Source: Micromonospora sp. NBC_01796
GTDB lineage: Bacteria > Actinomycetota > Actinomycetes > Mycobacteriales > Micromonosporaceae
Direction: 5' to 3'
DNA: 64,000 nucleotides
Assembly (NCBI RefSeq): GCF_035917455.1
Contig: NZ_CP109078.1
Location: 744,001 to 808,000, forward strand
This document shows positions 19,935 through 45,955 of the stretch, piece by piece (the stretch's first letter is position 1; each line of letters begins with the position of its first letter). The notes under the pieces are model-generated. The model was given only the letters and a program-made list of their open reading frames with translations, had not been told where the DNA came from and searched no databases. Position numbers and translations under genes: made by a program.

Positions 19935-21338
19935 CTAGTGGCTCCTACGCTGGCAATTCGCGCGCAAACACAAAAGCGCGCGGTGCCAATTGAACGGTAC
20001 ATTGATTGTCGCGAGCCGCCCCCAAAGTCGACAGTCGTTTTAGCCACAGTCGACGAGACGCTAGCTCGCCGCGCAATTCTAGATTTAGACCGGCCGTCGC
20101 GTCGACAACCAGAGTGTTAAGCCCACACATCCGTCAGAACCCGAACACGGAAACAACGTGTTACTTGGCATCCGCCGCCGCCCCGGTCACCTGAGAAGCA
20201 CCGTACCGGGGACGGCTACGAACGCCCACTCGCAGAACCCCGATCGCTTGCCACGACCTCGACAACGGACACGCCCGGGTCACCCGCCCCACCAGACCTG
20301 CCGTTCCCGGACGTCAACCAGGTCTGGCTGATCGAACGCCACGTCACCGCCAGCAGCGGAAAACGACCCGCAGCCCGCAAGTCGGCACCGCCGGCCGCGC
20401 CCCCGACGAGGCCAACCCCGCCGGACTGGCCGCCCACAACCGCAGCACACCTGCTACCGCGAAGACCAACGCCGTGGTGCGCACGTCTGGGTAGAACTCG
20501 ACGACGGCGTGAAGCAGGCAGTCAAGCCGTACTGGGAACAGTTCATCAAGCTCAAATGCGAGTACGACGTGGACGTCAGGCGCGCACAGTACGTAGATAG
20601 ACTGAGCCGGCAATGGCTGACAATCCTCGAAAACTCGTCGACAATCCCGTCGCCGGTGGCGCGGGCAAGATGACCAACGAAAGTCTCGCCGCCCTCGTAC
20701 GCGATCTCATCGCCGAATAAAGCGCGAGCGCGCAGCGACTGGAAGACCTCCTCGGTGAGCGTCTGCGCAACGGCGACGCTTACGAGCAGGCCATGTCGTT
20801 CGACCTCCTGGCCGAGCGATTGAGCCCCCACGGACCAAAATCCGCGAAAACACCGACTCCCGGCCAGAACGGCGCATCCCAGGTTGATGTCCATCGACCA
20901 CCATCGTCGAGCGACCGACGGCGGAACGGATCGAAGATCCTCCTGGTACGGAGACCGGGCACAGTTGGTCGGTTGGCCAGGACGGCGGCGTGCGTAACGT
21001 TGTTACGGTCCTCGCCCGCACGCGCTAGTGCCGCTCGAAAGTAGCGCGAGGCCTCTCATCGCCTCAAGCGATCCTGGCCCCGCCTGTCGGAGGCGCCACT
21101 CGATCGACCCAGCCGGGGCCACCCACAGCGGTAGGTGATCATGCGCTCGCAGCGTAAGTGCCCGCAACCAGAACGGCTCGTTACCGGGGTTCCGGTAACG
21201 AGCCGTTGACCTGCTGGTGGAGCTGATGGAGGCCCTTGCACACCCCTGTTGGGAGGCCAAGCGCCTGCTCGTCATGTCCACGAAATGGACATGACATCAC
21301 AAAGAGGCACGTCGAGTCCTAGCCTGCACGAAGGATCT
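19935..21338. other. Decayed, gene-poor DNA
   Basis: 1.4 kb without an intact gene. On the plus strand, 20470-20640 reads HVWVELDDGVKQAVKPYW and onwards as plausible protein without a start. At 20613 an ATG begins MADNPRKLVDNPVAGG, reaches a TAA at 20718-20720, and the same frame continues past it as QRLEDLLGERLRNGDAYEQ, as if a Glu codon had become a stop. These are probably gene relics. A long hairpin at 21172-21207 lies at the right end. Confidence 0.4.
21172..21207. terminator. 16-bp perfect hairpin, loop GGTT
   Basis: AACGGCTCGTTACCGG (21172-21187) pairs with CCGGTAACGAGCCGTT (21192-21207). It lies about 130 bp beyond the stop of the minus-strand gene at 21339 and is the likely terminator for it, although no U-tract follows. 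Confidence 0.45.
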
Positions 21339-22118
21339 TCAAGCCACGGGCGCCAAGTGTTCGAGGTTGCGCCAGTCCTTTGCCGCCCACTCCATCAGTT
21401 GACGCACGCGCTCTTTGCCCTCGTTCACGACCACATCGATGAAGCAGTCGCACTTCGCCAGGTTCCGACCGTTGACCACGCAGACCGCGATGCCCGCGAT
21501 CTGCATCCCTCTCGCCACCGCCACAAGTTGCTGATCCCATGGCAGCGGTATCCGCTTGGCCACCTCCTTGCCGAAGTCCCTGGCCACGCGAGGCGTACCG
21601 AGCAACTCCAGGAGAAGACCGACCAGATCCCCGATCCGGCCATGGAGCCAGTCCTTGCCATCCAGGGCGGCACGAGCCAGGCGAGCGAGCCCCTTGCAGT
21701 TCCTCCCGGACCAGTCATCCGTCAGCCGCGACCAGACCCGGTCCCCTGCGTATCCGGCCGCCCGTACTACGGCAGCATCGGCCGCCCCTACCGCAACCGT
21801 GGCCTGGACGTAGCTGACCGCCTCGGCGATTAGCACCTCTCGCGCTGCAGGCGAAGGCCTCACACGCGATTGAGCCGACGCACTGAACTGGCTCGACGTG
21901 GCTGTACTTCGACGAGTCTTGGGAGGCGTCGTCGCCCTGGCCTTCTTCGGTGGATGCTTTGCATACTCCGACAAACGCCCCCGCAACGGAACCTCTGGCC
22001 GACCGAGGTGCTGCGGGCATCTCTGGCCTGGCCGACTCACTGGGCGCTGGCATGCGCGGCCATCCTCATCACGTGGTCCCCTGCACTTAACCTTCTGCTT
22101 TCGCGGCCGCTGCGCCAT
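21339..22118 (-). CDS. Hypothetical protein with N-terminal Cys/His cluster
   Basis: A 259-aa protein from ATG 22118. It begins with a basic stretch (MAQRPRKQKVKCRGPRDEDG) followed by CQRPVSRPGQRCPQH; the C-x-C-x-C-x-H spacing suggests a small zinc-binding module. The rest is helical with a hydrophobic patch (IGDLVGLLLELL) and a C-terminal helix rich in charged residues. No enzyme motif found. It lies just left of the IS3 element and may be accessory DNA. Confidence 0.55.
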   Translation of the reverse strand: MAQRPRKQKVKCRGPRDEDGRACQRPVSRPGQRCPQHLGRPEVPLRGRLSEYAKHPPKKARATTPPKTRRSTATSSQFSASAQSRVRPSPAAREVLIAEAVSYVQATVAVGAADAAVVRAAGYAGDRVWSRLTDDWSGRNCKGLARLARAALDGKDWLHGRIGDLVGLLLELLGTPRVARDFGKEVAKRIPLPWDQQLVAVARGMQIAGIAVCVVNGRNLAKCDCFIDVVVNEGKERVRQLMEWAAKDWRNLEHLAPVA

Positions 22119-22268
22119 GCCTGAACGTAAACAGACCAGCACGGAGCATGACAGTGGTAAATCATGTCGGATCTAGGACATGAAGCCGACAGCTATCGCC
22201 GGTGGTTTGGTTTGCACATGACCGATGAGGTGCACCTGATCCAGGGTCTTGCGAACCCAGACTGGGCC

Positions 22269-22287
22269 TGCCCCGTTTTGACGGACA
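22269..22287 (+). repeat. IS3 left terminal inverted repeat
   Basis: TGCCCCGTTTTGACGGACA; pairs with the right end at 17 of 19 positions. Confidence 0.75.
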
Positions 22288-22332
22288 TCCGAGATCAGGG
22301 GACCTGGGGTCTCCGGGAGGATGTCCAGCATC

Positions 22333-22644
22333 ATGGAGAGCATGGGAAAGAAGCGGCCGCGGCCTCGGCGTTCGTTCACGCCGGAGTTCAAGGCCGAGAT
22401 CGTCGAGTTGTGTCAGCGTGGTGACCGCACGCTCCGGCAGGTCAGCCAGGACTTCGACCTGACCGAGACGGCAGTGCGTGAGTGGGTCAAGCAGGCCGAA
22501 CTCGACACCGGCGTCCGCGCCGATGGGCTGACCACCGACGAACGGGCCGAACTCGCACAGCTGCGCAAAGAGAACCGCAGGCTGCGCGAAGACGTCGATG
22601 TGCTCAAACGGGCAACGGCTTTCTTCGCGAAGGAGACCCGGTGA
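22333..22644 (+). CDS. IS3 transposase OrfA
   Basis: A 103-aa DNA-binding subunit: HTH_Tnp_1 domain (RRSFTPEFKAEIVELCQRG, then LTETAVREWVKQAE) and a C-terminal leucine-zipper helix (ELAQLRKENRRLREDVDVL) used for multimerisation. The start may be 22321 or 22333; GGGAGG directly abuts 22321, so the later ATG has better spacing. It ends GTGA, overlapping the orfB start in the -1 frame, which allows either reinitiation or a frameshifted OrfAB fusion. Confidence 0.88.
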   Translation: MESMGKKRPRPRRSFTPEFKAEIVELCQRGDRTLRQVSQDFDLTETAVREWVKQAELDTGVRADGLTTDERAELAQLRKENRRLREDVDVLKRATAFFAKETR

Positions 22645-23537
22645 ACGTCTTCCCGTTCATCGCCGCGGAGCAGGCCGGCAAGCACAACGTTAAACGTGCC
22701 TGCGAACTGCTCGAGGTCTCCCGATCCGCCTACTACCAGCAGAAAACCGGCACCCAGTCGCAGCGCGAGCGGGTCGATGCCCGGCTCACCGACAAGATCA
22801 CCGTGCTGCACGAACGGTCCAAGGGCACCTACGGGGCGCCGCGGATCCACGCTGACCTCACCGAACAGGGGCTACGGCACGGCCGCAAACGCGTCGCCCG
22901 GCTGATGCGCATCGCCGGACTCGCCGGCAAGAGCCCACGCCGCTGGCGCACGACCACAATCCCGGATCCGGCCGCCGGGCTCCGACCTGACCTGGTCGGC
23001 CGCGATTTCCGTGTTGATCCTGGCGTAATCGATACCCGCTGGTGCGGCGACATCACCTACATCAACACGTGGCAGGGCTGGCTCTACCTGGCCACTGTCA
23101 TCGATCTCGCATCACGCCGGGTCGTCGGCTGGGCCGTGGCCGACAACCTCAAGACCGACCTGGTCGACGCCGCCCTCGCCGACGCTGTCGCACGCCGCCG
23201 ACCCGAGCCCGGGCTGGTGTTTCATTCCGACCGTGGCACGCAATACGTCAGCGCCCAGCACACCCGCCTGGCACACCGTCACGACATCCGCCTGTCCGTC
23301 GGCCGGCGCGGACAGTGCTGGGACAACGCAGTCGCCGAGTCGTTCTTCGCCACCATCAAAACCGAACTCCTGCACCGCCAGGCCTGGCCCACCCACCAAG
23401 CCGCCCGCCAGGCCATATTCGAATACATCGAGGGCTGGTACAACACCCGCCGCCGACACTCAACCCTCGGCTACCTCAGCCCTGCGGCCTTCGAGACCAC
23501 CAGCTCACAACCGCTACCGATCGACCGAGCCGCCTAA
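22641..23537 (+). CDS. IS3 transposase OrfB, DDE integrase
   Basis: A 298-aa catalytic subunit starting at GTG 22641. The HTH_21 segment (SKGTYGAPRIHADL) is followed by the rve core with the catalytic triad: Asp in WCGDITYI, Asp in FHSDRGTQY, Glu in NAVAESFFATIKTE. The C-terminus has the IS3 signature YNTRRRHSTLGYLSP. No disruption, so the element can be autonomous. Confidence 0.93.
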   Translation: MNVFPFIAAEQAGKHNVKRACELLEVSRSAYYQQKTGTQSQRERVDARLTDKITVLHERSKGTYGAPRIHADLTEQGLRHGRKRVARLMRIAGLAGKSPRRWRTTTIPDPAAGLRPDLVGRDFRVDPGVIDTRWCGDITYINTWQGWLYLATVIDLASRRVVGWAVADNLKTDLVDAALADAVARRRPEPGLVFHSDRGTQYVSAQHTRLAHRHDIRLSVGRRGQCWDNAVAESFFATIKTELLHRQAWPTHQAARQAIFEYIEGWYNTRRRHSTLGYLSPAAFETTSSQPLPIDRAA

Positions 23538-23558
23538 CTAAGATCAACACAACGACCC

Positions 23559-23577
23559 TGTCCGTCGAAACGGGTCA
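23559..23577 (-). repeat. IS3 right terminal inverted repeat
   Basis: On the minus strand TGACCCGTTTCGACGGACA, differing from the left end at two positions. Confidence 0.75.
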
Positions 23578-23652
23578 AGCCCAAGACTGGGAGGCGCGAC
23601 GGTTGCTTGACGCGACCGACAGGCACGGGATGGGGACAGTAGACAGCCGAGC

Positions 23653-26600
23653 CTAATGCTCTGCTGCCTCCACAAGCTCAGCCACACCGTAGGCGTTGAG
23701 CGCTAGCATCTGATCAATAAGATCAAGAGTTTCCCGTCTCTGAACTTGTGAAGTCGCCTGCGCATACGCTCTAAACACGAGCTGCCCGACCTCCCGTGCA
23801 TCCCCAGCCGCACTCGTTGCGAAATCACTCACATCCGAGCCATGAACCTCAATGAAACGCCGAGCACAGGCAATTACGAGTGAATCGACACGATCTGGAG
23901 CACGCTCAAGCGTTATGAGCAACTGTGGAACGGCTTCCGAATAGGCATCCGAGGAGATGAGACCAGATAAGACTCGCAAGAATGGGCGTAGCCGCTCGTC
24001 GCGAAGAACACCAGCAACCTCTGCTACTGCCTTACGAACGCCTTCATCACCGTCGTTCATCAATCGGACAAGGACATCTTCTGCTAGAGCCGTATTAGTA
24101 GCGACTGGGAGTAGATGAGCACATACTGATGCAGCACCTCTTCGAGCCGCAGCGTCTTTGCTGCCCACAACAGATCGAAGCTGCTCCTCCTGACCCCACT
24201 CGATGCCAGCGTAAGCTGCCAAGGCACCACCACACTGCCGCACTTCGGCGTCCTCGGCTTGCAGCATCCGTGGCGCAAGCGACATTACGAGAATGGGATC
24301 CCCATTACCAATGTACCTAATGAGTCGCGTAACGGTCCCAACCGCGAGCAACCTATCGTCACCCTGCAGCAGTAACTCGAAAGCCTCAACTGCTTCAGGT
24401 CGTGCGTGTCGCAGACAACTCGCGATCACGTGGGCAACACACGACCGAACGGCTACAGATGAATCCTGTGCCATTCGGTTCAGGACGGGCACCACCAGCG
24501 CCGTGCGGATCCCATCTGAATCGTAGACGAGGAGATCTCCCAAGGTGAGAGCAAGGCTACCTCTCGCCGTGTTCATACCTTCCGAAAAGATCACTCCGTC
24601 AAACGTCTCTTGCTCCCTCATTTCATGCTGGGGCCACCGTGCCTCGCCAGGATCCTCCGAGCTCAAAATCCGTTCGACGATCATTGAGATAATGTCGGTC
24701 GGAATATCACTCCTGAGGTAGTTACGACGAAGCGGCCACCCGAGCCATCGATCGTTCTCGCGAAACTGAAGTGACGCTATGTGACGCATCACTTCAAAAA
24801 TCGGCGCTGGATCAGGTAGGGGCTCAGCTTCGCCCAGACCCATCAATATCGCCTCAGTGTAGTCAGGCTTAATCTCGCTTCCGAGACGGAGCGTCAGCCC
24901 AGCAAATCGCGCGGCATCCTTCGACACCTCGCCCTGCAAGACGCGCGACAACTCCCGGGAGCCGCCCCGAAACGCCCTAAAGTCCTCCCTGTCTGTGTTA
25001 TGCCTCGCCATCGCGCGTAACCAGTCGTCGTCAGACATGCGCTCCGCCGCCTCGGGCGCGATAGGCGACTGCACCGACCGCATTTCGATTGGTTCCGGAG
25101 CATCGGGCTGATCCATATTGGTAAGGCGCCTGAGCTCGCCTAGTCGTCGGCGAGCTACAGAGGATAACCTAGATTCATCCATCGCAGATAGCAGACAGAA
25201 CATATACCATCCAGGGTTCCTTCTCTCCCAGGGAAAGCGGAGTTCAAGGATTGCCTGTTCCAGACGATCAAACAGCTCTGCCGACAGGTGGTGACCTATG
25301 GCTTCAATGAGCTGACGGGTCGTCCAAACACCATTTGACATGTAGCCGCTCAGGAATCGAGCAGGGTTTTGCAGGAGGATACTCCCCGCCCAATTAGCAC
25401 AGCTCTCGGCGGCCGGGCCCCTGAGGGCTTCGTATAATAGCCATTGGGCCGCGTCGTGCTGGTCTGTCGCCAGCTTCTCTAGCAGTGGCCGAGCGGCCTC
25501 CGTATCCTGACCGGCGAAGTCACGAAGAGCGCTAGCCGCACTAAAAAGCAGGGCATCCTCAAGCTCGTGGAAGTTCTCATGAGGAATGCGTAGACCAAAG
25601 TGGGCGTCCGCGTAAAGGTGGTCCTGCCACTCTCGCTCCGTCAGGCGCATCACGGTTAGCAGGTACGGTAGGAGCAACTCACAGAAGATTCGCGGAGCAC
25701 CCTCCGCTGCCTGCGTCGTTAGCCTGATTATGGCGTCGTCGTGATCAAGAAGGGATTTGACCTTTCCGGAGTCATCAATATCCAAGGCATTTGGCCGCAA
25801 GGCAAGATGGGCGACAAGTAGCTCGACTGCCCAGATTGGTTGGTGTTTCGCTAAATCATATGTAAACATCCACAAGTTGTGACCGTAGTCGCGAATCTCG
25901 CCACTTCGTATGGCATCCGTCAACAGTTCAAATAACGGTCGACTCTCGTGCACTCTCGCGAATCGAACGGTCCATAAAAGCCAGTTAGCGTAGTTCCGGG
26001 AGCGCCCAGCATGCGGCTTGAGAAGTTCCGCCATCCGATCGGGCCGCTCCTTGATCCCACCAAGCGCGACGTGCAATGCATGGTTGTGATAGCGTTCATC
26101 ACGGCCCGCAAGCCATTCTTCAAACATCCCATCGCTATCGAGACGATCGAACCAGGCAAGCGTACGTAGCGAAAGCCACACCCGATCCTCGAATAGCGAG
26201 TGCGCATCGAGCACGCCACTTACCATATCCCACTCCGCACTTGACGGATCGGGCAATGAGCTAAGAATACCGAGAACGACATCCTTTATGTGGAATCGGA
26301 CGTTCTGATGAGAGAGCAAGTCTCTCACTTCTTCGATAAACCGCTCCGGCTCCGACGCCCGGAGGTGACTAAGAATCTGGCGGACTTGAGAACGTCGAAA
26401 TAGTTCCTGCTCGCTTGAGAGCAGGAACTCAACAATGCTCTGCTCCTGGCTGAGCCAGCCACGGGTGAAGACATAGCCAAAGAACGCCTCGTGAAAGAAC
26501 GCGATTTGCTGGCCATCCCTGGTAAGGACATGTTCCGACACCAGCACACTAGCGTCAACAAGCAAATCATTCTGGTCGAGGACTGAGACGTTGACCGATA

Positions 26601-28110
26601 GGCGTTGCTGCGAACTCATGGCACTCGCCACGGTCTGCGCAACCTGCGCGAAACGGGTACCGTCACGTCGCTGCGAACAGTCGATCACTTTGCGGTCCCA
26701 GAAAGCATCGAACAGATTGTTCGGAGTCCGGAATGTCAGCGCTCCGGCCTGATCGGCGATACCCTGCAACAGGACGAGATGCAGCGGTGACGTGAGCAGC
26801 TTCACTTGTCGTTCTTCAAGTGCGGCTGGATCGATGCCCATTTCGCGGACCGCATCTGCTACTTGCGACTCGGACAGCTTTCCTAGCTCTACTCGCGCAG
26901 AGCGTTCATCCTTAACTAGGTCGCGTATGCGGTGATCGTTCTCGACGTCGAACTTTCGGCAGGCGAGCACAACTCGCATTTTCGGGAACGCAGAGGCTTC
27001 CCTTATCGTGTTCGCAACAGCGTCAAAGCTCAGCGGCATACGCCCAGAGGCGAGGCTGACAGCGTCGAGCTGATCTATCACGAGCACAGATGGATGCTCA
27101 CCCGCAACAATCGAGAGCGCCGTCACCGGAGAGACCGTCAGTCCAAGTCTCTCACCGAGCTCGGCGGTTGATGAGAATGCCCCAAGCCGATCGAGCCGAA
27201 ACCCCAGAACCGCCACCTCCTTGGCATTCAACTCTCCAGCCATCTCATGAAGGACGGCACTCTTGCCGTCACCTGCGTCGCCAGTTAACAGTACTAGCCG
27301 ATCTTCCCCCTCCAGCAATTCAACCAGCTTCGTTGCCTCGCTTCGCGCGATGACCGGCTTAATAAGCCCGAGCTGGATCCCAGCTATCCATCCTGCCGTA
27401 ATGGCGGTGGCATGTTCGACTATTGTCGTCGTCCGTATTTGTTGCGCACGACGAAGGCCGTAGTCGACCAAGTTCGCCTCAATGAATGCGACGTCGAGCC
27501 GGACTCCAAGGTTCTGCTGAACGAGATCACCGAGGCCAACTGCAGCGAGTCTGCCCGCCGCGCCTTCGAGAAATAAGCCGGCGAGCGCCGCGTTCATGTC
27601 ATTGATATTTCGCTCATCCGGCCACTCTATCCAAAGTCCACGAAGCACGCTCCAGGCAGCCTCTGGCGAACCGAGTAATTTGGTCGACGCCAGTTCATCG
27701 AATGTGGGCTTCAGGGCTCCCGTCAGCCAGTAGTCAATGAAGTTCTTCAGATCGGCTGATCGGCGCGCTCGATCTGTCAGCTCCTGAACGGGCCGCGACG
27801 GGATCGTCGAGACGAAGTGGAACTGCCTACCGGCTTCAACATGTAACCGGGCATTCTGCAGAACTCCCTTGCCGTGAAGAGATCTTGGGGTCCAGCTGTT
27901 GACGTTCTCGTCCTGCCGTTTGAGCTGATGAACCTCAACGACACTGCCACGACGAAAGGTGAACTCAGCACCCTGAGCGAGTTCATCAATGTCTTCGACG
28001 GTGATGGAGTCGGCTTCGCCAAGCAGTACGCGCAGGACATGTTGTACTGTCCAGGCCCCCTCAAAACGATTACCAAACTTGTCGGCTTCACCGCCTGGAC
28101 GCGGGCTCAT
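23653..28110 (-). CDS. Nuclease-STAND NTPase-HEAT protein, Avs-like, CBASS-linked
   Basis: A 1485-aa protein. Residues 1-120 resemble the DUF4297/Cap4-like PD-(D/E)xK nuclease: GNRFEGAW, acidic SITVEDIDE (36-43), then EVHQLK (59-64) giving the QxK end of the active site. Residues 250-560 are a STAND NTPase with Walker A TGDAGDGKS (276-284) and Walker B VLVIDQLD (342-349). The remaining ~900 residues are helical repeats, clearly HEAT-like near 1230-1400. This is the plan of Avs antiviral STANDs, where the repeats recognise phage proteins and the nuclease degrades DNA. It follows the Cap15 gene by 25 bp on the same strand with GGGGGG upstream, and its codons are AT-richer than the chromosome, suggesting transfer. 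ATP and nuclease function are inferred. Confidence 0.8.
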   Translation of the reverse strand: MSPRPGGEADKFGNRFEGAWTVQHVLRVLLGEADSITVEDIDELAQGAEFTFRRGSVVEVHQLKRQDENVNSWTPRSLHGKGVLQNARLHVEAGRQFHFVSTIPSRPVQELTDRARRSADLKNFIDYWLTGALKPTFDELASTKLLGSPEAAWSVLRGLWIEWPDERNINDMNAALAGLFLEGAAGRLAAVGLGDLVQQNLGVRLDVAFIEANLVDYGLRRAQQIRTTTIVEHATAITAGWIAGIQLGLIKPVIARSEATKLVELLEGEDRLVLLTGDAGDGKSAVLHEMAGELNAKEVAVLGFRLDRLGAFSSTAELGERLGLTVSPVTALSIVAGEHPSVLVIDQLDAVSLASGRMPLSFDAVANTIREASAFPKMRVVLACRKFDVENDHRIRDLVKDERSARVELGKLSESQVADAVREMGIDPAALEERQVKLLTSPLHLVLLQGIADQAGALTFRTPNNLFDAFWDRKVIDCSQRRDGTRFAQVAQTVASAMSSQQRLSVNVSVLDQNDLLVDASVLVSEHVLTRDGQQIAFFHEAFFGYVFTRGWLSQEQSIVEFLLSSEQELFRRSQVRQILSHLRASEPERFIEEVRDLLSHQNVRFHIKDVVLGILSSLPDPSSAEWDMVSGVLDAHSLFEDRVWLSLRTLAWFDRLDSDGMFEEWLAGRDERYHNHALHVALGGIKERPDRMAELLKPHAGRSRNYANWLLWTVRFARVHESRPLFELLTDAIRSGEIRDYGHNLWMFTYDLAKHQPIWAVELLVAHLALRPNALDIDDSGKVKSLLDHDDAIIRLTTQAAEGAPRIFCELLLPYLLTVMRLTEREWQDHLYADAHFGLRIPHENFHELEDALLFSAASALRDFAGQDTEAARPLLEKLATDQHDAAQWLLYEALRGPAAESCANWAGSILLQNPARFLSGYMSNGVWTTRQLIEAIGHHLSAELFDRLEQAILELRFPWERRNPGWYMFCLLSAMDESRLSSVARRRLGELRRLTNMDQPDAPEPIEMRSVQSPIAPEAAERMSDDDWLRAMARHNTDREDFRAFRGGSRELSRVLQGEVSKDAARFAGLTLRLGSEIKPDYTEAILMGLGEAEPLPDPAPIFEVMRHIASLQFRENDRWLGWPLRRNYLRSDIPTDIISMIVERILSSEDPGEARWPQHEMREQETFDGVIFSEGMNTARGSLALTLGDLLVYDSDGIRTALVVPVLNRMAQDSSVAVRSCVAHVIASCLRHARPEAVEAFELLLQGDDRLLAVGTVTRLIRYIGNGDPILVMSLAPRMLQAEDAEVRQCGGALAAYAGIEWGQEEQLRSVVGSKDAAARRGAASVCAHLLPVATNTALAEDVLVRLMNDGDEGVRKAVAEVAGVLRDERLRPFLRVLSGLISSDAYSEAVPQLLITLERAPDRVDSLVIACARRFIEVHGSDVSDFATSAAGDAREVGQLVFRAYAQATSQVQRRETLDLIDQMLALNAYGVAELVEAAEH

Positions 28111-28135
28111 TGCTTATCATCCCCCCGGTAGCTAG

Positions 28136-28762
28136 TCATGCGCGATCCTCAAAGTATCCAGCAGCTTCTGCGTAGTCATCAGCGAGCTCGCGACTCCGTT
28201 CCCGGAATTCAAGTTCGCCCTTGCTGTCGCGGTCAGTCCAGTACCGCCCCTTCAGGCGTCTTGCTGGATTGCCAGAAATATCAAACACTGCCGAGCCGTG
28301 ATGAATACGACTACGGTGCTCGACACGCATATCTGGCTTATTCAAGTACAGATATGTCAACAAAAATGACCCATCGACTTCGGAGATGCTAGCCAACGCC
28401 GAGGTAGACCTCGACGCATCAGTCATCAGCTTCACGACGACCAGCGAGCCGGTCTGCTGTACGACTAGGTAGACGGTCTTCGGTTCTGGCCTCATGCCGG
28501 TACTCGGCTCGACCCAGAACGAAGTCAAAGTGCCTTGCCAAGTCCCCCTTATATTCCTCGGCACTCCGGGAACCCGCTGAACAAGGGGGAGCCGCCAAAG
28601 CCAGAAGTCCCACAGATTGAAGAGGACGGTGCTGGCCAGAACCGCAATAGAGAAAAACTTGAGCACAGCTAGATCCGGCCGACCATCTTGCACCCAGGTC
28701 CCAATCACAAAAACAACGACGACCACCGCGACAATAACGCGGATAGCAATCGTTCGCTTCAT
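28136..28762 (-). CDS. cap15: Cap15-type CBASS membrane effector
   Basis: A 208-aa protein from ATG 28762, which overlaps the CD-NTase stop as ATGA. Two transmembrane helices (about residues 5-24, IAIRVIVAVVVVVFVIGTW, and 31-55) precede a beta-rich domain starting at RGTWQGTLTSFW and containing VYLVVQQT, YLYLNKPDM, HHGSAVFDIS and GRYWTDRDSKGELEF. This matches the two-helix plus cyclic-nucleotide-binding beta-barrel plan of Cap15. In known systems the second messenger binds the barrel, the protein oligomerises and disrupts the inner membrane, causing abortive infection. Assignment rests on architecture and remembered motifs; no search was run. Confidence 0.78.
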   Translation of the reverse strand: MKRTIAIRVIVAVVVVVFVIGTWVQDGRPDLAVLKFFSIAVLASTVLFNLWDFWLWRLPLVQRVPGVPRNIRGTWQGTLTSFWVEPSTGMRPEPKTVYLVVQQTGSLVVVKLMTDASRSTSALASISEVDGSFLLTYLYLNKPDMRVEHRSRIHHGSAVFDISGNPARRLKGRYWTDRDSKGELEFRERSRELADDYAEAAGYFEDRA

Positions 28763-29646
28763 GAAGCAAGCCCCAGGTAATTCCAGGCAGCCTTCACAAA
28801 GTCGCGGCCATCCTGACGGTTCCATGCCTGATCGCGATGGAACAGGTATTTGTGCCCGTTCACCTCACGCCACCGCTTGGAGCCCTCGGCCGGCTCCGCA
28901 CCCTCAAGCTCGCTCCAGATATGAACAATGACGCCGTGGACGGTCTTGGCCCAGGTTGGCTCAAGAAAGACACTGTCAGGACAATTATACACAAGGCATT
29001 CAACAAAAAAAGACGGAACCTCGCGGTGCTCGCCACTAAGAACCATGGCGTTCTCGACTCGCTTCATAATCCGAACGGCCTTTTTGTAGTAGCCGTTGGT
29101 GCGATTGTTCTTGGTGCGCCCGTTGGTGAGTTGCTGAACGGGGTAATTGACGAGGCCAGTTCCGTCCTTCTTGAAGACCTTTGTGCCCTCTCTGTACTCA
29201 CCCGACGAGAAGTAGTAGCGATAGTCAAAGCACGGAACTACATCGGCGTCGACGCGTGCGCTATTTGAGCTTATGCGGAAGGCGGTTGAGCCAGATGAGT
29301 CAATTTGACCTGGGAACTTTTTCTTCAAAGCAGCTTCCAGTTCAGCGCGCAGGTTCGTCGGCGTCCAGATTCCCTTATATGGGGATCCCGCGGGATGCGC
29401 TCCCTTCGTTGCCTCCTCCCAATAGACAACCTCGCCGCATTGGACGGCAATATCTACGTCACTGTCTGCTTTGACGTTGGTATTGTTGGCGTAGGAACCC
29501 TTGGCATAAACAATAATATCGTAGCCGCTGAATGCCGAGTGCCCCTTCACAGCCTCACGGATCATACGTTCGGTCCGCTCCTGCTTGTCCTGCTCGGTGG
29601 TACTGGACGGTCCGGTCCAACTGATCAGACGCTCCTCTAGGCTCAT
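28759..29646 (-). CDS. CD-NTase, CBASS cyclic-oligonucleotide synthase
   Basis: A 295-aa SMODS/OAS-like nucleotidyltransferase. The signature GSYANNTNV (G50-S51) is followed by DSDVDIAV (catalytic D63 and D65) and a third acidic residue in RVDADVVPCF (about D135); the C-terminal helical domain follows with KNNRTNGYYKKAVRIMKR. It would make a cyclic di- or oligonucleotide when triggered by phage. ATG 29646 is preferred over GTG 29652 because AGGGG lies 8 bp before it. First gene of the defence operon. Clade and product are not assignable by eye. Confidence 0.85.
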   Translation of the reverse strand: MSLEERLISWTGPSSTTEQDKQERTERMIREAVKGHSAFSGYDIIVYAKGSYANNTNVKADSDVDIAVQCGEVVYWEEATKGAHPAGSPYKGIWTPTNLRAELEAALKKKFPGQIDSSGSTAFRISSNSARVDADVVPCFDYRYYFSSGEYREGTKVFKKDGTGLVNYPVQQLTNGRTKNNRTNGYYKKAVRIMKRVENAMVLSGEHREVPSFFVECLVYNCPDSVFLEPTWAKTVHGVIVHIWSELEGAEPAEGSKRWREVNGHKYLFHRDQAWNRQDGRDFVKAAWNYLGLAS

Positions 29647-29744
29647 CGACACACCCCTGACATCTCGCCGCTTGCAGATGATGTGACGGCCAAGACGACC
29701 AATGAGGAAGAGGTATTTTTCATATAAGGATCTCGAATGGCCAA

Positions 29745-29750
29745 ATTATA
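29745..29750 (-). promoter_or_regulatory. Extended -10 promoter for the CBASS operon
   Basis: On the minus strand TGC-TATAAT, a perfect consensus -10 with an extended TGn, about 100 bp upstream of the CD-NTase start. No good -35 is present. Such an AT-rich element is unusual in this genome and fits an incoming operon with its own promoter. Confidence 0.55.
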
Positions 29751-30319
29751 GCACTTTTGTCCGATTCCGGGAACTGTATTCCAATTACCCAGACGTGGGT
29801 CGCAACGCAATGTTCCCCCCATCACTCCCGGCGTCACTGCTTCGTGGCGTCGACCGAGCCCTCGCATCGCCAAGATCAAATTTCGGTTCAGCAGGTTCAT
29901 CAGGCGATGGGCGACCCTAGATAGGACGAAAGCGCAAAAGCAAGTTACTTACGGGTTCGGCGTGGCGGGCAGCTTGTTTCATTCTGACATTGTCGGATTT
30001 AGCCACCCTAGAAAGATCCATCCCGAGTCAATGCCTGGCGAGCAACACAAGTGGACGCGTCGTGGGTTCAGGATGAGGGCCGCCGATATGGCCGTAGCTT
30101 CCACCCTCGACGGGGGCTACAGGAGGAGGTGTGCCGTGTCCGAGCTACGTCCAACGTCGTCCACTGTTACTGATACCACGAACGCCTCCCAAGCGGTCGG
30201 TGCGAACACCAGCACCAGACCGGAGGCGTCCCTGTGCCGTTCAGTGAGAGCACAGGCTGGCCTCTCAACAAACTAGCCACTCGCCGAAGCCGACCACCGG
30301 CCTAAAGATCCGACAACAA
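29751..30319. other. Gene-free stretch
   Basis: About 570 bp between the defence operon and the Lsr2-like gene, of mixed base composition. A plus-strand frame at 29962-30276 has neither ribosome-binding site nor recognisable domains and was not accepted. This could hide the left attachment site of the element, but I found no copy of the tRNA-Val end here. Confidence 0.4.
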
Positions 30320-30356
30320 GCCCCCGCCGCCCTGTACTCGGCAGGGAAACGGGGGC
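30320..30356 (-). terminator. Rho-independent terminator after the Lsr2-like gene
   Basis: GCCCCCG (30320-30326) pairs with CGGGGGC (30350-30356), with an inner CCCTG/CAGGG stem. Reading on the minus strand it is followed by TTGTTGT, a T-rich tail, and it sits 13 bp after the gene stop. Confidence 0.7.
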
Positions 30357-30368
30357 GTCGTGAACGAC

Positions 30369-30584
30369 TCAGACGGCTTCAGGCTGGGCTATCGCCTCGG
30401 CGTAGGGAATGACCTGTGACCTTTCGATGTACGGTGCGAGCAGCTCCCGCAGGGCCTGTTCACCTTCCTTGGTGAGGTCGAGCCGGTAAAAGTCGTACTG
30501 GATGGAGAACGTGACCGGCCCACCTTTGCCAGCCGGGATGTCCTTGCCGGTGATGTCGTCCGTGAGCACGATGCGTGCTGACAT
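30369..30584 (-). CDS. Lsr2 dimerisation-domain-only protein
   Basis: A 71-aa protein. ARIVLTDDITGKDIPA, VTFSIQYDFYRLDLT and the final helix align with the N-terminal dimerisation domain of Lsr2, the actinobacterial nucleoid silencer. The C-terminal AT-hook-like DNA-binding domain (RGR) is absent; the protein ends after IAQPEAV. Start ATG 30584 has a strong AGGAGG. A lone dimerisation domain could poison host Lsr2 oligomers and relieve silencing of AT-rich element genes; that role is inferred. Confidence 0.7.
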   Translation of the reverse strand: MSARIVLTDDITGKDIPAGKGGPVTFSIQYDFYRLDLTKEGEQALRELLAPYIERSQVIPYAEAIAQPEAV

Positions 30585-30691
30585 GCTGGTTACCTCCTGC
30601 TGGTCGACGCGCAGAAGCTAACAGCACAAGACTTACATGTCAGGCCGAATGTAAGGAATCGGACTACTTGCCCTCCCGGGAAGGGTCTGCC

Positions 30692-31255
30692 CTAGCACGC
30701 CGGCAGGTTGCGCTCGCCGCGACTACTGGCATTCACCCAAACCTCTGAAAGGAAACCAGACCTGCCGTCTCGCCAGACTATCTTGTACCACAGCCTCGAA
30801 CTCGACAGATCCGGATTCGCATCATCGACTGCGGACTCCCTGTTTCCGTTGGTTACCTCGTCGCCGATTTGCCAACAGACGGCAGTGACGTAATCACCGC
30901 TGCGCAGATCAGTATCGGGTAGAGCACAGCCGTTGTCCTTGCAGAACGACACGGTTCGAGTAGACAAATACGCCGGAGAATCCTCACGCATTGAGTTACC
31001 GCTGGTGACACGATTATCGATCAACAGCTGCACACCCGGGCCGGTGGGCCCAGGGGCCGGCTCGGGCGCGGCTGACACCGACGCTGACAGCTGTGGCGCC
31101 GGCTTGTCGTTAAACGGGAACCACTTCACTTCGTGAGCAAGCATCAGCAAGCCAATACCTGCTCCCACGACGCCGACGGCCGCCTGCACCACCGTCGATA
31201 TCGTGATCATAGAACTATTGGTGGTACCGGTACGACTCTCAGTAGTTCCCGTCAT
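30692..31255 (-). CDS. Membrane-anchored SH3-like protein
   Basis: A 187-aa protein: short cytoplasmic N-terminus, one transmembrane helix (VVQAAVGVVGAGIGLLML, about 27-44), a Pro/Ala-rich linker, and an extracytoplasmic domain with two Cys (FCKDNGCALP) and a C-terminal beta part (WYKIVWRDGRSGFLSEVWV) resembling bacterial SH3 cell-wall-binding domains. Its ATG overlaps the CHAP gene stop by 4 bp, so the two are co-translated and probably work together at the wall. Confidence 0.65.
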   Translation of the reverse strand: MTGTTESRTGTTNSSMITISTVVQAAVGVVGAGIGLLMLAHEVKWFPFNDKPAPQLSASVSAAPEPAPGPTGPGVQLLIDNRVTSGNSMREDSPAYLSTRTVSFCKDNGCALPDTDLRSGDYVTAVCWQIGDEVTNGNRESAVDDANPDLSSSRLWYKIVWRDGRSGFLSEVWVNASSRGERNLPAC

Positions 31256-32640
31256 GTCACGTGCTTCACAATCGTCGCGGTGGGGTCGCTGAAAACCCCA
31301 AACCGGTCACTGACGGTGGCGTAGAAGGAGTGCTCCCCAGGACTGATGCCGCTGAACTGCTTGGACGAACGCGTGCCGCACTGTGCGGTGAACGCCTCGC
31401 GTCCGTCGATGAAGAAGTGGCAGGTCACCGGATCACGTCCGCTCTGCCAACCAACATCGAATGCGACGCCCACGCGCCCGCCGCCGTGAGGTACGACGAC
31501 GAGGTTCGCGGCAATCGGCTTGGGCGCGGGTGGCGGTGGTGGTGGCTGCGGCGGTTCCGGCTGCCGTGGCGGCTGCGGCTGCGGCGGTTGCGGCTGCTGG
31601 GCTGGCGTAGTCGGAGGCTGCGCCGGCGGCTTCGTAGTGGCTGGCCGTTGCGGCGCCGCCGTGATGGTGAAGAAGGCATCGACATGGCGGCCGGTGCTCA
31701 AGTCCACAGCACGGGTTCCGTAGGTATCGGGTGGATCTCCCTTGCACGGCCACCGCCAGGGGAACGATCCGTCCGGACGTGCGATCGCCGTTGTCTTCAG
31801 GTTCGCGTACTGCCGGCCATCCGAGTGCCAGGCGGCGATGCTCACCTCACCGCCGGGCGTAAAGCCCGACGACACACCCACCAGCTCGCCACCGTCGGGC
31901 GTGCAGGAGCCATTGATCTTCAGCTTCACGTCCTCGGCCGGCGCTGGCTGAGGGGTCGATGCCGGCGGCTGTTGGTTGCCAGTGTTCTTTGCCGCATGCA
32001 CGTAACCGGAGATCGTGATGCCGGCCTTCGAGACGGCACCGGTCACCGGGTCGTACGCGTACGTGGCCCTGCCCGCGACGCTGTTGTTCTGCTCGACAGC
32101 ATGCAGCGTCCTGCCCTCGATGCGATCTACAACTGCCACGTGCCCGTACTTCCCGTTGCTGTGCACCACCACGTCTCCGGGCACCGGCTTGTAGCCGGAC
32201 CCGTTGGCATGGCCAGTCAGGCCGGCGTAATCACCGCGCTGCGCATGGACGTAGAGCCACTTCGCGGCATCGTTTGCCTCCGCGCCCAACCAAAGCCGGG
32301 GAAACCACCCACGAGCTGCGTAGAGTCGATTCACAAGCTCGAAACACTGCCAACCGTATCCAAATGCCGGAGGATTGGCATTCAGGTTGAACACAGCCTT
32401 GTTATCAAATGCGCAGCTCGTGCCCTTGGTTTGGAACTCCCCGTTCGAGTGCACGTCAACACCCTGTCCACCAAGCCAACTGGTGCCCGCAACCGTGACG
32501 TGCCCACAGGCATACGGATTGGCCGCAGCGTTCGCCCTCGGCCACATGTCCAGTTGCCACGTCAACGCGGACGCAACGATCATGCCGGACAGAAAGACGC
32601 CAACGATCATGACAAGGCGACTGCGACCAGGCACACGCAT
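31252..32640 (-). CDS. CHAP-domain cell-wall hydrolase
   Basis: A 462-aa exported protein from ATG 32640, which has GGAGG 9 bp upstream. An N-terminal hydrophobic segment (VMIVGVFLSGMIVASALTW) serves as signal or anchor. The CHAP amidase/peptidase domain has catalytic Cys in GYGWQCFELVNRLY and His in GKYGHVAVVDR. A beta-domain, a long Pro/Gln-rich spacer and a C-terminal Ig-like domain follow. CHAP proteins of conjugative elements cut peptidoglycan to let the transfer channel through, the VirB1 role. First gene of a two-gene operon. Confidence 0.82.
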   Translation of the reverse strand: MRVPGRSRLVMIVGVFLSGMIVASALTWQLDMWPRANAAANPYACGHVTVAGTSWLGGQGVDVHSNGEFQTKGTSCAFDNKAVFNLNANPPAFGYGWQCFELVNRLYAARGWFPRLWLGAEANDAAKWLYVHAQRGDYAGLTGHANGSGYKPVPGDVVVHSNGKYGHVAVVDRIEGRTLHAVEQNNSVAGRATYAYDPVTGAVSKAGITISGYVHAAKNTGNQQPPASTPQPAPAEDVKLKINGSCTPDGGELVGVSSGFTPGGEVSIAAWHSDGRQYANLKTTAIARPDGSFPWRWPCKGDPPDTYGTRAVDLSTGRHVDAFFTITAAPQRPATTKPPAQPPTTPAQQPQPPQPQPPRQPEPPQPPPPPPAPKPIAANLVVVPHGGGRVGVAFDVGWQSGRDPVTCHFFIDGREAFTAQCGTRSSKQFSGISPGEHSFYATVSDRFGVFSDPTATIVKHVT

Positions 32641-33162
32641 CAGCCCATCCTCCATCAGCTCTGGTGTCCCCCTAAGGGACGCCCACAGTAGCGCAGGGGT
32701 TGTGTGTGCCAAGTGAATTTAGGTGCGCGTGTTAGCGATCATGGAATCGCTCTAACCTGGTATGCCGGATTTGCCTATGCCGATCATGAGCACCCGACTG
32801 AACGATGAGCCGATCAAGTGATGAGCGGCCAGCCTATCGGCCTAACCTCCTCGACCAACAAACACCGACAAGCCCTCGCCGCACACAGTCGATCATCATT
32901 GCTTACATGATCACTGATGCCGAGCGAACCCAGACGCACCGAGCATGCGTGAATCCGAAACTGCCTCGGATTCACGGACTTTGCCGACGTCGCGAACAGG
33001 TCCCAGTCAAGCGAACATGAGGCACGCGACGTGCCTGTACCACTTCCAGTCAAGCTGTTTATATCCCCAGAACCAGAGCTGTCACGAATAGTGATGTAAT
33101 TGTTAATTGACTTATGTTATGATCATCTTCAAGGGCATGGGAGCGGTGGCTTCTAACATGCT

Positions 33163-33183
33163 GGCAGGTACGTCTTACCTGCC
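33163..33183 (+). repeat. 8-bp hairpin GGCAGGTA/TACCTGCC
   Basis: GGCAGGTA (33163-33170), loop CGTCT, TACCTGCC (33176-33183). It lies 25 bp before the poly-C tract; could be an attenuator or a protein-binding dyad. Confidence 0.5.
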
Positions 33184-33207
33184 ACTCAAAAACAATCATC
33201 GAAGGTA

Positions 33208-33225
33208 CCCCCCCCCCCCCCCCCC
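33208..33225 (+). repeat. Homopolymer of 18 C
   Basis: An uninterrupted run of 18 cytosines about 120 bp before the next start codon. Runs of this length change by slippage; in a promoter or leader region they can switch expression. Length may also be misread in sequencing. Confidence 0.9.
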
Positions 33226-33345
33226 GCTAATTCTCAGGGGGCTGGGCGGTTCGACCGTGGCCACGTTTTTATGAACGCAGTCTCCTGCGACGTGCCGATT
33301 GGCGGGCGGTCAGAAAATATCAACATCAACTCAGGAAGTCTTACC

Positions 33346-33624
33346 ATGACGAAAGGATCACTTTCCGCATCCCAACCACATCAATTCAAACCGCTCGTTC
33401 TCGGGTCAACCATCGTGCCGCCGCGCAAGATGACCAAGCTCGCAGTCGGCCCATTCCCAGCGACGGAGCCACTGCCCGAACTGGAGGTCGATGTCGAACA
33501 GGGCGGCCACGAAGCCTTGGCGTACATGTCATCCCGGCACCACGACCCGGAGGGTCAATCCGTGATCTTTTTATTCGAGAACTACGGAGACAAAGGGTGC
33601 CTGGTTGTCGTGAAAACCGCATAG
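33346..33624 (+). CDS. Small hypothetical protein downstream of the poly-C tract
   Basis: 92 aa from ATG 33346, chosen for the AGGAAG 9 bp upstream. The sequence is soluble, with a Pro-rich front half and a strand-rich end (SVIFLFENYGDKGCLVVVKT). No family recognised. The frame is open upstream to 33271, so a longer form is possible. The next gene follows by about 55 bp on the same strand. Confidence 0.5.
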   Translation: MTKGSLSASQPHQFKPLVLGSTIVPPRKMTKLAVGPFPATEPLPELEVDVEQGGHEALAYMSSRHHDPEGQSVIFLFENYGDKGCLVVVKTA

Positions 33625-33679
33625 CCTCACGAAGTGTTCATGATGGCATTTGCCCGCATGCCGACGGATACTTCATTCT

Positions 33680-34525
33680 GTGCAACCACCCTCGAAGCGG
33701 CACACCACGAAGGCCGGCGATGAACGACTGGCCCGCCTGGTGATGCAGACAGCCCTTGATGTGCCGGTCGCCGTGTATGACGACCAGTCAAGGGACAGCA
33801 TGTACGACCTGCGGGTCCTGTACCCAGACGGCAGGGTAGCCGCGGTCGAGGTGGTTTCCACCCGCAGCAGCAAGGCCGTGAAACTTGAGCTTGCGGCCCA
33901 GCGGCTCGGCCACATACCGAAGCCGGAGTTGTCCCGCAGCTGGCAACTGCTGGTCGTGCCCGAGACTCAGCTCAAAAAACTCGCGGCCGCCGCAACGGCC
34001 CATCTTGTCGAACTTGAACACGCAGGCGTCGAGCGGTGCACGCGGCGATCTCAGCTGCCGCCGGCGCTCCAGGCGCTCGGGGTGGCGTCCGTCAGGTCAT
34101 TCCCACCGACGGAGCAGCGTCCTCCAGGCTTCCGTCTGAACCCTCTGCCAACAGGGGCCTGGGAGCACTCCGCTGACGACGCCGTGCGGGAATGCGTCGA
34201 GTTCCTGCACGCAACACCTGACGTACTGGGGAAGTTGCTGGCGTCAGGTGCGCCTGAACGGCACGCAGTCGTCATCGTGACGGTCGACTGGCTGGAGGCG
34301 TTCGCCGCACTCCGTCACGGGTCGACGCCCACCGCAGCCCCGGATCTACCCGAGGGGGTTGAATGTCTGTGGATGATTGCACTCAAAGCACTCCCAATCC
34401 GGGCAATCTATTGGCTCGGCGACGGGGTGTGGCGTGATGTGCTCCTGGATCAGGAGCACATCAACAGGGCGAACCACCGGCAGGGGCGGCGAGCCCTCTA
34501 TCAAGATCGACAGAGGGCTCGCTGA
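33680..34525 (+). CDS. Hypothetical protein of the integrative element
   Basis: 281 aa from GTG 33680 (a TTG at 33650 is also in frame). The N-terminal half has MYDLRVLYPDGRVAAVEVVS, a strand-turn-strand that recalls restriction-nuclease-like folds but has Val where the catalytic Lys would be. The C-terminal half is alpha/beta with HAVVIVTVDWLEAFAAL and WMIALKALPIRAIYWLGDG. Probably regulated together with the 92-aa gene before it. Function unknown. Confidence 0.6.
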   Translation: MQPPSKRHTTKAGDERLARLVMQTALDVPVAVYDDQSRDSMYDLRVLYPDGRVAAVEVVSTRSSKAVKLELAAQRLGHIPKPELSRSWQLLVVPETQLKKLAAAATAHLVELEHAGVERCTRRSQLPPALQALGVASVRSFPPTEQRPPGFRLNPLPTGAWEHSADDAVRECVEFLHATPDVLGKLLASGAPERHAVVIVTVDWLEAFAALRHGSTPTAAPDLPEGVECLWMIALKALPIRAIYWLGDGVWRDVLLDQEHINRANHRQGRRALYQDRQRAR

Positions 34526-34549
34526 CGGATGAGGCCGGATGGGACGACC

Positions 34550-34750
34550 TTACGGGGCGATCGCGCCGTCCTTGATGCTTCCGGTGAAGGCGGCCCAGGC
34601 GGTCGGGCTGAAGGTCAGCGTCGGGCCGCTTGGATCTTTTGAGTCGCGCACGTCGATGGCAACGCTGCGGTCGCGTACCTCGGTGCACTGCCCGTTCGAT
34701 GATGATCTGCTCGACTTCCGCCAAGCTGCGTGAGTGGGGATAGATCCCAT
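34550..34750 (-). CDS. DUF397 protein
   Basis: 66 aa with the family core AWRKSSRSSSNGQCTEV, VAIDVRDSKDPSGPTL and FSPTAWAAFTGSIKDG. ATG 34750 has a strong AAGGAGG. It lies 17 bp after the Scr1-type regulator gene on the same strand, the standard pair in actinomycetes; DUF397 partners are thought to modulate or antagonise the regulator in an antitoxin-like way. Confidence 0.92.
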   Translation of the reverse strand: MGSIPTHAAWRKSSRSSSNGQCTEVRDRSVAIDVRDSKDPSGPTLTFSPTAWAAFTGSIKDGAIAP

Positions 34751-34766
34751 ATCAGTTCCTCCTTGC

Positions 34767-35636
34767 CTACTGCATTTTGTTGGCTACCTCGCGGATGAGT
34801 CGAGCGGAATCCACGGGGTTCAGTGCGGCGGCGCGGAGGTGCTCGAAGATCACCGTGAAGCGCCGGACATCGGCGTCACGCTCCAGGAACAGCTCGCCGG
34901 CCATGCTGTCGATGTAGACCAAATCGGGGTCGGCGGTCTCCGGGAAGTCCATGATGGCGAACGAGCCCGGCATGCCCGGGTGGGCGCCGACGCCGAACGG
35001 TACGACCTGCACCACGATGTGCGGCTGTTTCGAGGCGTTGGCCAGGGCAGCCAGCTGCTCGACCATAACCTTCGTGCCGCCTACCAGCCGGTGAAGCACT
35101 GCTTCGTCCATGATCGCCCACAGGTTCAGCGGGCCGTCTTTCTGGAGCGACGCCTGGCGCTTGAGTCGCGCTTCAACCCGCCGTTCGACGTACCCGTCGT
35201 CAGCGATCGGAACTGCCCCGGCAATGACGGCGCGGGCGTAGTCCTCGGTCTGAAGTAACCCCGGAACGAACAGACACTCGTAGTTGCGCAGGCCGAGCGC
35301 CTCGGCCTCGAAGCTGATGTAGGCCGTGTACTCATCCGGCAGCTCCGACTCAAACGCCTGCAACCAACCGAGCTGGGCGGCCTGCTTCGACAGGTCGATC
35401 AGTTCGTTGCGGGTGTCTTCGTCGGTTACGCCGTATTTATCGAGGAGCGCGACGAGTGTCCGTCGCTGCGGGCGAACCTTGGCCGTCTCGATCCGGTACA
35501 GGGTGGCCGAGTTGATCCCGGTCTGCTCGCTCACTTCCTCGCGCGTCATGGCCGAGGCGGTGCGCAGGCTGCGGAGTTCGGCGGCAAGCCGTCGCAGGCG
35601 CACGGTGGGCGGTTGTCTCCGAGCTGACAAGTCCAT
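34767..35636 (-). CDS. Scr1-family XRE regulator (DUF5753)
   Basis: A 289-aa protein from ATG 35636, with GAAGGG upstream. Residues 10-70 hold the Xre helix-turn-helix (RTASAMTREEVSEQTGINSA, then YRIETAKVRPQ). The rest is the DUF5753 domain (YECLFVPGLLQTEDYARAVI, LNLWAIMDEAVLHRLVGG, VVQVVPFGVGAHPGMPGSF). Such regulators govern development or element maintenance and pair with DUF397 proteins. It lies divergent to the small-gene run at 35914-37180, which it may control. Confidence 0.92.
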   Translation of the reverse strand: MDLSARRQPPTVRLRRLAAELRSLRTASAMTREEVSEQTGINSATLYRIETAKVRPQRRTLVALLDKYGVTDEDTRNELIDLSKQAAQLGWLQAFESELPDEYTAYISFEAEALGLRNYECLFVPGLLQTEDYARAVIAGAVPIADDGYVERRVEARLKRQASLQKDGPLNLWAIMDEAVLHRLVGGTKVMVEQLAALANASKQPHIVVQVVPFGVGAHPGMPGSFAIMDFPETADPDLVYIDSMAGELFLERDADVRRFTVIFEHLRAAALNPVDSARLIREVANKMQ

Positions 35637-35913
35637 GATCCCTTCGCTCCGTCCGTAATCAGAGTGTCCCTGTCGTGCAAGTACCACGACAAGGCAGGGT
35701 GGGCGAGTGATGATCGGGCAGATGCATACCTTGCATAATCCGATATGCAGTAGCACGATGGGCACAGCATGTCACATCCCACCCGAGGTGCGGCATGGGC
35801 CATGACCTCGTGTTTAACCGCTCAAACATGAGGAGTTGGCCACTCCCAGGTGGGGGCTCCGGCCTCAGCTGGCGGCAACCGGCCGCCGGAGCCCCCTTGA
35901 GAAGGAGGTCAGC

Positions 35914-36060
35914 GTGGAGATCATCGGCACCGTCGTCGGATGCGTACTTCTGGGGTTCTTGGCGGGGCTGTTCAGCTTCCGGGTCAAGAGCCGGTGGTGC
36001 CCCACCTGCGGCCGTACGACAAGCAGCTCCGTCTACAAGGCCACTCATGGCCGGTCTTGA
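35914..36060 (+). CDS. 48-aa membrane peptide with CxxC
   Basis: GTG 35914 with a near-perfect AAGGAGGT. One transmembrane helix (IIGTVVGCVLLGFLAGLFSF) is followed by a basic turn and WCPTCGR, half of a zinc ribbon. First gene of a tightly overlapping run; the next start lies inside its 3' end. Confidence 0.65.
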   Translation: MEIIGTVVGCVLLGFLAGLFSFRVKSRWCPTCGRTTSSSVYKATHGRS

Positions 36061-36307: not shown

Positions 36308-36462
36308 ACGACCCGCGGGCGTACGCATCTCCCACGCCCATGAACGTCAGGATCGACGGCGAGCACTACAAGGGGCGTATCTCGCCGTTGATCAAGCAGG
36401 CGCTGCGTGACTGGCAAACCGCCCAAGCGAAGACGCGGTACACCGATGCCGCCAACTCCTAA
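36304..36462 (+). CDS. 52-aa hypothetical protein
   Basis: Starts at ATG 36304 within the ATGA of the preceding stop. Basic, with a helix ISPLIKQALRDWQTAQAK. Translationally coupled on both sides. No family. Confidence 0.55.
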   Translation: MNDPRAYASPTPMNVRIDGEHYKGRISPLIKQALRDWQTAQAKTRYTDAANS

Positions 36463-45935: not shown

Positions 45936-45955
45936 GGGTTTCGTCGTGACGCAGG

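Follow-up and report, generated by a model that had tools for sequence, protein, structure and literature searches.

The Avs (AVAST) proteins are STAND nucleases in which an effector, a STAND module and a helical repeat follow one another, and Panoptes systems employ a Cap15-like effector. Type I CBASS operons have been described around the enzymes EfCdnE, ClCdnE and LpCdnE, and that account ties an (R/Q)xW motif in CdnE enzymes to pyrimidine donors (PMC10442399). Furthermore, a second report describes bNACHT25/32 as bNACHT proteins with an N-terminal PD-(D/E)XK DNase (PMC12169576). No CBASS-STAND operon was found among the literature matches listed. Here, we describe such a neighborhood in a 64,000-nt stretch of Micromonospora sp. 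NBC_01796 (NZ_CP109078.1, positions 744,001 to 808,000; hereafter the window). The CBASS pair and the STAND gene are, in our judgment, very probably two independent anti-phage systems lying side by side as the cargo of one integrative element, with an accidental junction and no evolved functional coupling between them.

The three genes lie on the minus strand. The first encodes a CdnE-type CD-NTase (P0003, 28759..29652; 297 aa from a GTG codon, with the ATG at 29646 as a possible alternative start), the second Cap15, a two-TM beta-barrel effector assigned by Pfam PF18153 and PADLOC (P0002, 28136..28762; 208 aa), and the third a STAND/NACHT NTPase in an intact frame (P0001, 23653..28110; 1485 aa). 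The layout given in the initial annotation was correct in its coordinates, spacing and protein length: the CD-NTase and Cap15 genes overlap by ATGA (28762-28759), and the 1485-aa gene follows Cap15 on the same strand after 25 nt (28111..28135, minus strand). The AT-richness it reported was also evident, as the G + C content of the three genes is 55, 55 and 57%, versus 68 and 71% in the window to the left and right of the element. The -10 sequence that it placed before the first gene exists as the hexamer TATAAT (29745..29750, minus strand), but without a matching -35 element; a scan of 28050-30000 for -35/-10 pairs found 0, compared with a mean of 1.0 in shuffled sequence.

Based on the profile and structure matches of CdnE and Cap15, the first two genes make up an ordinary, complete type I CBASS, in agreement with the first reading of the locus. 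P0003 matched the PADLOC cyclase models at 1e-138 and, among the CdnE structures in the PDB, EfCdnE (7x4c) at 2.4e-50, while P0002 scored above the cut-off for Pfam PF18153 (Cap15_CD_rec, 1.4e-14) and matched the PADLOC 2TM effector at 1.3e-82. Panoptes was also considered for the Cap15-bearing pair and was set aside, the synthase here being a CdnE. In the PDB alignment, Asn169 of P0003 lies opposite an Asn in both aligned CdnE chains shown, and QAW 275-277 lies opposite RKW 279-281 of EfCdnE (Arg279 and Trp281). As N169 and QAW 275-277 fit the acceptor-Asn and (R/Q)xW determinants given in PMC10442399, the product is probably a cyclic di-pyrimidine, with c-di-UMP as the likely candidate. By analogy with the studied CdnE-Cap15 pairs, infection would lead CdnE to make this cyclic di-pyrimidine, which would bind the Cap15 barrel and cause membrane disruption and cell death.

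P0001 is best described as a STAND protein of the NACHT type that combines a HEAT sensor with a probable nuclease as its effector. It scored just under the Pfam cut-offs for NACHT (4.4e-5, 23.8 bits versus 26.7) and HEAT_2 (3.6e-6, 27.6 bits versus 27.7), and a sequence search of the PDB with P0001 gave no match. The Walker A (277-284) and Walker B (342-349) motifs are well preserved: when P0001 was aligned with 24 relatives and the 19 core sequences were scored, G277, G280, G282, K283, S284, D346 and D349 were conserved in at least 18 of the 19, the window included. Residues 560-1485 were modelled as an all-helical solenoid (pLDDT 73), whose best Foldseek matches were HEAT proteins of the importin, CAND1, SF3b and PP2A types, with low TM-scores of 0.16-0.35. 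Thus, the STAND module and the helical repeats recognized at first sight are both supported, by the conserved Walker motifs and by the HEAT-like C-terminal model. The proposed Avs plan held in part: P0001 is a STAND protein and probably bears an effector domain, but the PADLOC model that it fits best is PDC-M54A, a candidate (7.4e-20, residues 227-584), whereas the Avs2 models met P0001 at only 0.03-0.06, so that an assignment to Avs would be weak. PDC-M54A is also the best PADLOC model for two relatives, L080 and L032 (3e-14 for L032, a distant relative that matched Avs2 at 1.4e-4). No mention of 'PDC-M54' was found in the literature searched, and no published mechanism for this STAND/NACHT family was found among the literature matches listed. 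A scan of viral contigs revealed no relative of P0001, and phage records contained no match to P0001 or P0003.

The N-terminal domain is a probable, still putative, PD-(D/E)xK-type nuclease, mainly on account of a conserved E...QxK pattern resembling that of PD-(D/E)xK enzymes: E17, E39, E49, Q62 and K64 are invariant in all 20 N-terminal domains chosen. The more specific label of 'Cap4-like nuclease' (Cap4/DUF4297) in the initial annotation was not established. None of the Pfam nuclease families matched the N-terminal 230 aa of P0001 or of 19 relatives; a PDB profile search of the domain returned a chance-level match alone (E 1.7); and PADLOC gave weak matches to LmuA in 2 and to REase_II in 1 of the 20 domains, P0001 matching neither. 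An AlphaFold model of residues 1-640 from five sequences had a mean pLDDT of 52, and its N-terminal part, at approximately 32-51 (approximately 33 in the first 60 residues), was too low for use. Four distant relatives (L034-L037) retain the NTPase and the solenoid with the N-terminal domain absent, a pattern suggestive of effector-module swapping. In addition, approximately 2.5 kb of inserted DNA splits the STAND gene of Streptomyces ipomoeae after residue 44 (L006:5337-8001). The STAND/NACHT protein would act as a single-gene system. Its HEAT solenoid is the probable sensor of a phage product, its NTPase would oligomerise and its N-terminal domain would serve as the effector, probably a nuclease.

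The initial annotation had further proposed that the two systems are wired together, and had itself named homologues of the STAND gene placed at random with respect to CBASS as evidence to the contrary. The search for STAND relatives gave matches in 5 named contigs, in 17 of the 397 genomes of the order and 17 of the 300 of the family (own genome included in both), and in 15 of 295 genomes from the genus group of G400, which is the Streptomyces genome of L005; the corresponding numbers for CdnE relatives were 9 of 397 and 34 of 300 (own included in both) and 13 of 295. Among 28 distinct STAND loci with flanks, neither CdnE nor Cap15 was found beside the STAND gene. In 24 of these loci, the flank upstream extended over 6 kb or more, and it was shorter in L002 (401 bp), L086 (531), L084 (874) and L081 (1767), and the loci are partly non-independent, as L002, L003 and L028 are 91-95% alike and L085 and L086 89%; L135 is a repeat of L003 (Micromonospora sp. 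RP3T). The closest STAND relatives, L002, L003 and L028, which are 74-76% identical to the window and share 91-95% DNA identity among themselves, are without CBASS within the flanks examined. From the CBASS side, a Cap15 relative was found near CdnE in all 17 CdnE loci with flanks (in two pieces in L088), and the STAND gene in none of the 17, L130 extending just 393 nt past Cap15. The order CdnE-Cap15-STAND therefore recurred in none of the 28 STAND loci and in none of the 17 CdnE loci; within these loci, the STAND relatives have no adjacent CBASS and the CdnE relatives do not adjoin the STAND gene, and the proposed wiring was accordingly not upheld.

The broader counts give a similar picture. 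Across 152 loci, 81 have a STAND match, overlapping ones included, and among these CBASS genes also occur only in L001 and L040, both from the own genome. This count alone, with flanks of approximately 1.5 kb, covers the matches left out of the wide-flank reading wherever a locus was made for them, namely the STAND matches of G812, G818, G745, G756, G855, G819, G761, G799 and G457, in addition to short STAND fragments, and the CdnE matches of G186, G209, G343, nine genomes of the 295-genome sample (39-47%) and the family-sample genomes below G709. A whole-genome search for CdnE in STAND-positive genomes was negative in 11 of 11, the same query finding CdnE relatives in other genomes. On plasmids, 14 records match P0001 (best approximately 26% identity) and 52 match P0003, and in the plasmid loci examined (L146 and L147 for P0001, and three for P0003) the other system was not found. 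On the plasmid of Sinorhizobium numidicum, the 26% STAND relative lies near genes for multiubiquitin-domain, ThiF-family and DUF6527 proteins and a tyrosine recombinase (L146:2857-10716). At a threshold of E 0.001 or better, both genes were found in one genome in 2 of 295 cases (G481 and G563; 0.66 expected) and, own genome included, in 2 of 397 (0.39 expected) and 3 of 300 (1.9 expected). The slight excess in two of the three samples (2/295 and 2/397) counts against independence, but it was not read as linkage, because in genomes other than the own one the two genes are on different contigs or far apart. STAND (54%) and CdnE (77%) lie approximately 490 kb apart in G481, a distant STAND relative (29%) and CdnE (72%) occupy different contigs in G132, and the STAND match in G563 is weak and covers 81 residues.

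The context of the locus was then considered. All three genes reside in an integrative element of 27.8 kb (21214..49060), with CTGGTGG at 21214 and 49061, inserted so that it separates tRNA-Val from its terminator-like hairpin (21172-21207). In G735 and G701, both of the same genus, the tRNA-Val site is uninterrupted, and the window matches these genomes rightwards from 49058 and 49061, respectively. To the left, the window matches them over 21145-21229 (86%, G735) and 21145-21218 (81%, G701), where the hairpin lies; further left, no match beyond these 85 bp appeared in a search that showed matches of more than 150 bp. The left border is thus set by this short matched stretch together with the end of the similarity to L028 at 21214. 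The element has a G + C content of 61%, versus 68 and 71% on its flanks, and encodes a large serine recombinase that is likely its integrase (47102..49171, plus strand; Resolvase 7.7e-34, Recombinase 9.1e-13), a TraG/TrwB-like coupling protein (41355..43550, plus strand; TrwB_AAD_bind 3.1e-8), a Replication-relaxation family protein (43148..44482, plus strand; Replic_Relax 6.2e-43), whose true start is probably later because the match begins at residue 196 of the reading frame, and a DNA methylase. A related element in a genome of the same family (L028) has in common with the window's element the left end as far as the repeat, a 267-aa protein without a Pfam match (21339..22142, minus strand), whose relative also follows the STAND gene there, the STAND gene itself (72% DNA identity) and window positions 39021-42904 (77%), a part of the transfer region; it lacks CBASS. 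Just downstream of the STAND gene, an IS3-type insertion sequence with rve and HTH_21 domains (22263..23583, plus strand), flanked by a 4-bp target duplication AGAC (22259-22262 and 23584-23587), interrupts a stretch that runs unbroken in L002, L003 and L028, leaving the STAND gene intact.

Some further features of these regions were recorded. A 38-bp stretch approximately 60 bp past the STAND stop codon in L002 (4915-4952) and L003 (12514-12551) is 97% identical to window positions 22229-22266, after which L002 and L003 diverge; this stretch is a possible boundary of a mobile STAND cassette. A CHAP-domain protein (31252-32712; 1.3e-11) with a hydrophobic stretch near its N-terminus is also encoded among the element's variable cargo. 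A protein of 376-379 aa that appears by eye to be membrane-bound is encoded in L079 (6756-7886), L092 (9079-10209) and L082 (6699-7838), and a Pfam search with the L079 copy gave no match; its gene precedes CdnE in two loci and STAND in one, so that the two systems may occupy similar cargo slots.

The DNA similarity to L002, L003 and L028 begins exactly at the STAND ATG, and the Cap15 similarity extends to residue 207/208 in L078, L127, L128 and L131; thus, the join most likely lies inside the 25-nt gap. Upstream of STAND, approximately 400 bp are common to L002 and L028 (90%; approximately 50 bp in L003), and nothing similar to the L028 stretch was found in window positions 28001-39100. A terminator between genes two and three, which had been named in advance as an argument against a joint operon, was looked for, and no terminator-like site was found there; such sites numbered two across 28050-30000 (1.5 expected), and one of these falls within the CdnE gene, minus strand, at 29450-29432. 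Given the 25-nt gap and the missing upstream region of the close STAND relatives, the STAND gene is probably read through from the CBASS promoter as one transcript in this genome. Recombination in this copy would have brought the 3' end of Cap15 up to the STAND start codon, probably placing both systems under one promoter in an operon of recent and accidental origin. The short gap, the common strand, the lack of a terminator-like site and the intactness of both proteins fit one transcript and in this respect speak against independence.

The position behind Cap15 is occupied by another type of gene in several relatives. In 6 of the 17 CdnE loci (L078, L079, L090, L094, L127 and L134), a DAC-type gene of approximately 580-630 aa lies directly 3' of Cap15 on the same strand, at a spacing of -40 to +74 nt, and in L093 it lies upstream of CdnE, giving 7 of 17 loci with such a gene near CdnE-Cap15. 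The L079 copy (9594-11327) matched DACNG (8.2e-62), DACNH (2.1e-25) and DAC (8.2e-10), and the other copies were identified by their similarity to it (36-53%). The CdnE proteins of L079, L078 and L127 are 77, 71 and 69% identical to that of the window. No DAC-type gene directly follows Cap15 in the remaining 11 loci, including L128 and L129 (CdnE approximately 70%) and also L130 (approximately 70%), which shows 393 nt only, and the slot is hence optional. In the DAC domain of five copies, DGA is kept and RFN (RLN in L094) stands at the position of RHR in DisA. Judging from these residues, the protein may bind rather than make a dinucleotide and would be a candidate regulator or decoy of CBASS. 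DACNG and DACNH were not mentioned among the literature matches listed. As a possible genuine accessory of CBASS, the DACNG-DACNH-DAC-type gene, which recurs beside actinobacterial CdnE-Cap15 pairs, has more in its favor than the STAND gene.

Several alternative explanations of the junction were weighed. A true three-gene system, with the STAND protein as an accessory sensor or backup of CBASS under one promoter, would account for the close spacing on one strand, the shared low G + C content, the lack of a terminator-like site in the Cap15-STAND gap, the absence of the region that precedes STAND in its close relatives, and the fact that the slot after Cap15 is filled by another gene in 6 of 17 relatives; however, the association is absent from all 28 STAND and 17 CdnE loci, no CdnE relative exists in the 11 STAND-positive genomes, and the closest STAND relatives lack CBASS in their flanks, which makes such a system improbable. 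It is less probable again that the STAND gene replaced the DAC-type gene in the same role for this CBASS. Although L079, L078, L127 and three more loci carry the DAC-type gene exactly where the window has STAND, the two proteins have no Pfam family in common, and the slot stands without a DAC-type gene in most CdnE loci, L128 and L129 among them.

Equally hard to favor is the possibility that the junction arose in the course of decay, with the STAND gene silent or non-functional now that its own promoter has been lost and an IS3 element has come to lie beside it. The upstream region of the close relatives is indeed absent and the insertion sequence ends 69 bp past the STAND stop codon, but the insertion is downstream of the gene and not within it, the 1485-aa frame is intact with its conserved motifs, and the protein identity to L002 (76%) exceeds the DNA identity (73%), as expected under purifying selection. 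A newly formed operon, in which the NLR-like STAND gene came under the CBASS promoter in the DAC-type slot and the joint expression of two death responses is starting to act as layered immunity, also appears unlikely, if slightly less so than an established three-gene system; if true, one system would cover phages that silence the other. Some room is left for a young selected coupling in this lineage, as the close relatives of this STAND allele (L002, L003 and L028) are few and alike and L002 has only 401 bp upstream. Taken together, the pairing looks like a chance stacking of defence genes and not like a new three-part system. The locus provides a clean example of two self-contained immune systems that share a mobile element and meet at a junction of 25 nt, and it cautions that close gene spacing in one genome is no proof of a system.

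Compared with described systems, P0001 shares with the Avs (AVAST) STAND nucleases the order of effector, STAND and helical repeat, but is separated from them by its poor agreement with the Avs2 models. PDC-M54A, the PADLOC candidate, is closer as the common best model of P0001, L080 and L032, with the difference that its best stretch spans the NTPase region of P0001 only. Set beside bNACHT25/32 (PMC12169576) by layout, P0001 resembles these proteins in its putative N-terminal nuclease, central NACHT-like NTPase and C-terminal helical part, and differs in a NACHT score just under the Pfam cut-off and in a HEAT solenoid of approximately 900 aa. The CBASS pair corresponds to the type I operons of EfCdnE, ClCdnE and LpCdnE (PMC10442399) in its adjoining CdnE and Cap15 genes and, by alignment, in N169 as the acceptor Asn and QAW 275-277 as the donor (R/Q)xW motif; what distinguishes it from these operons is the STAND gene 25 nt further on, an arrangement seen in this genome only.
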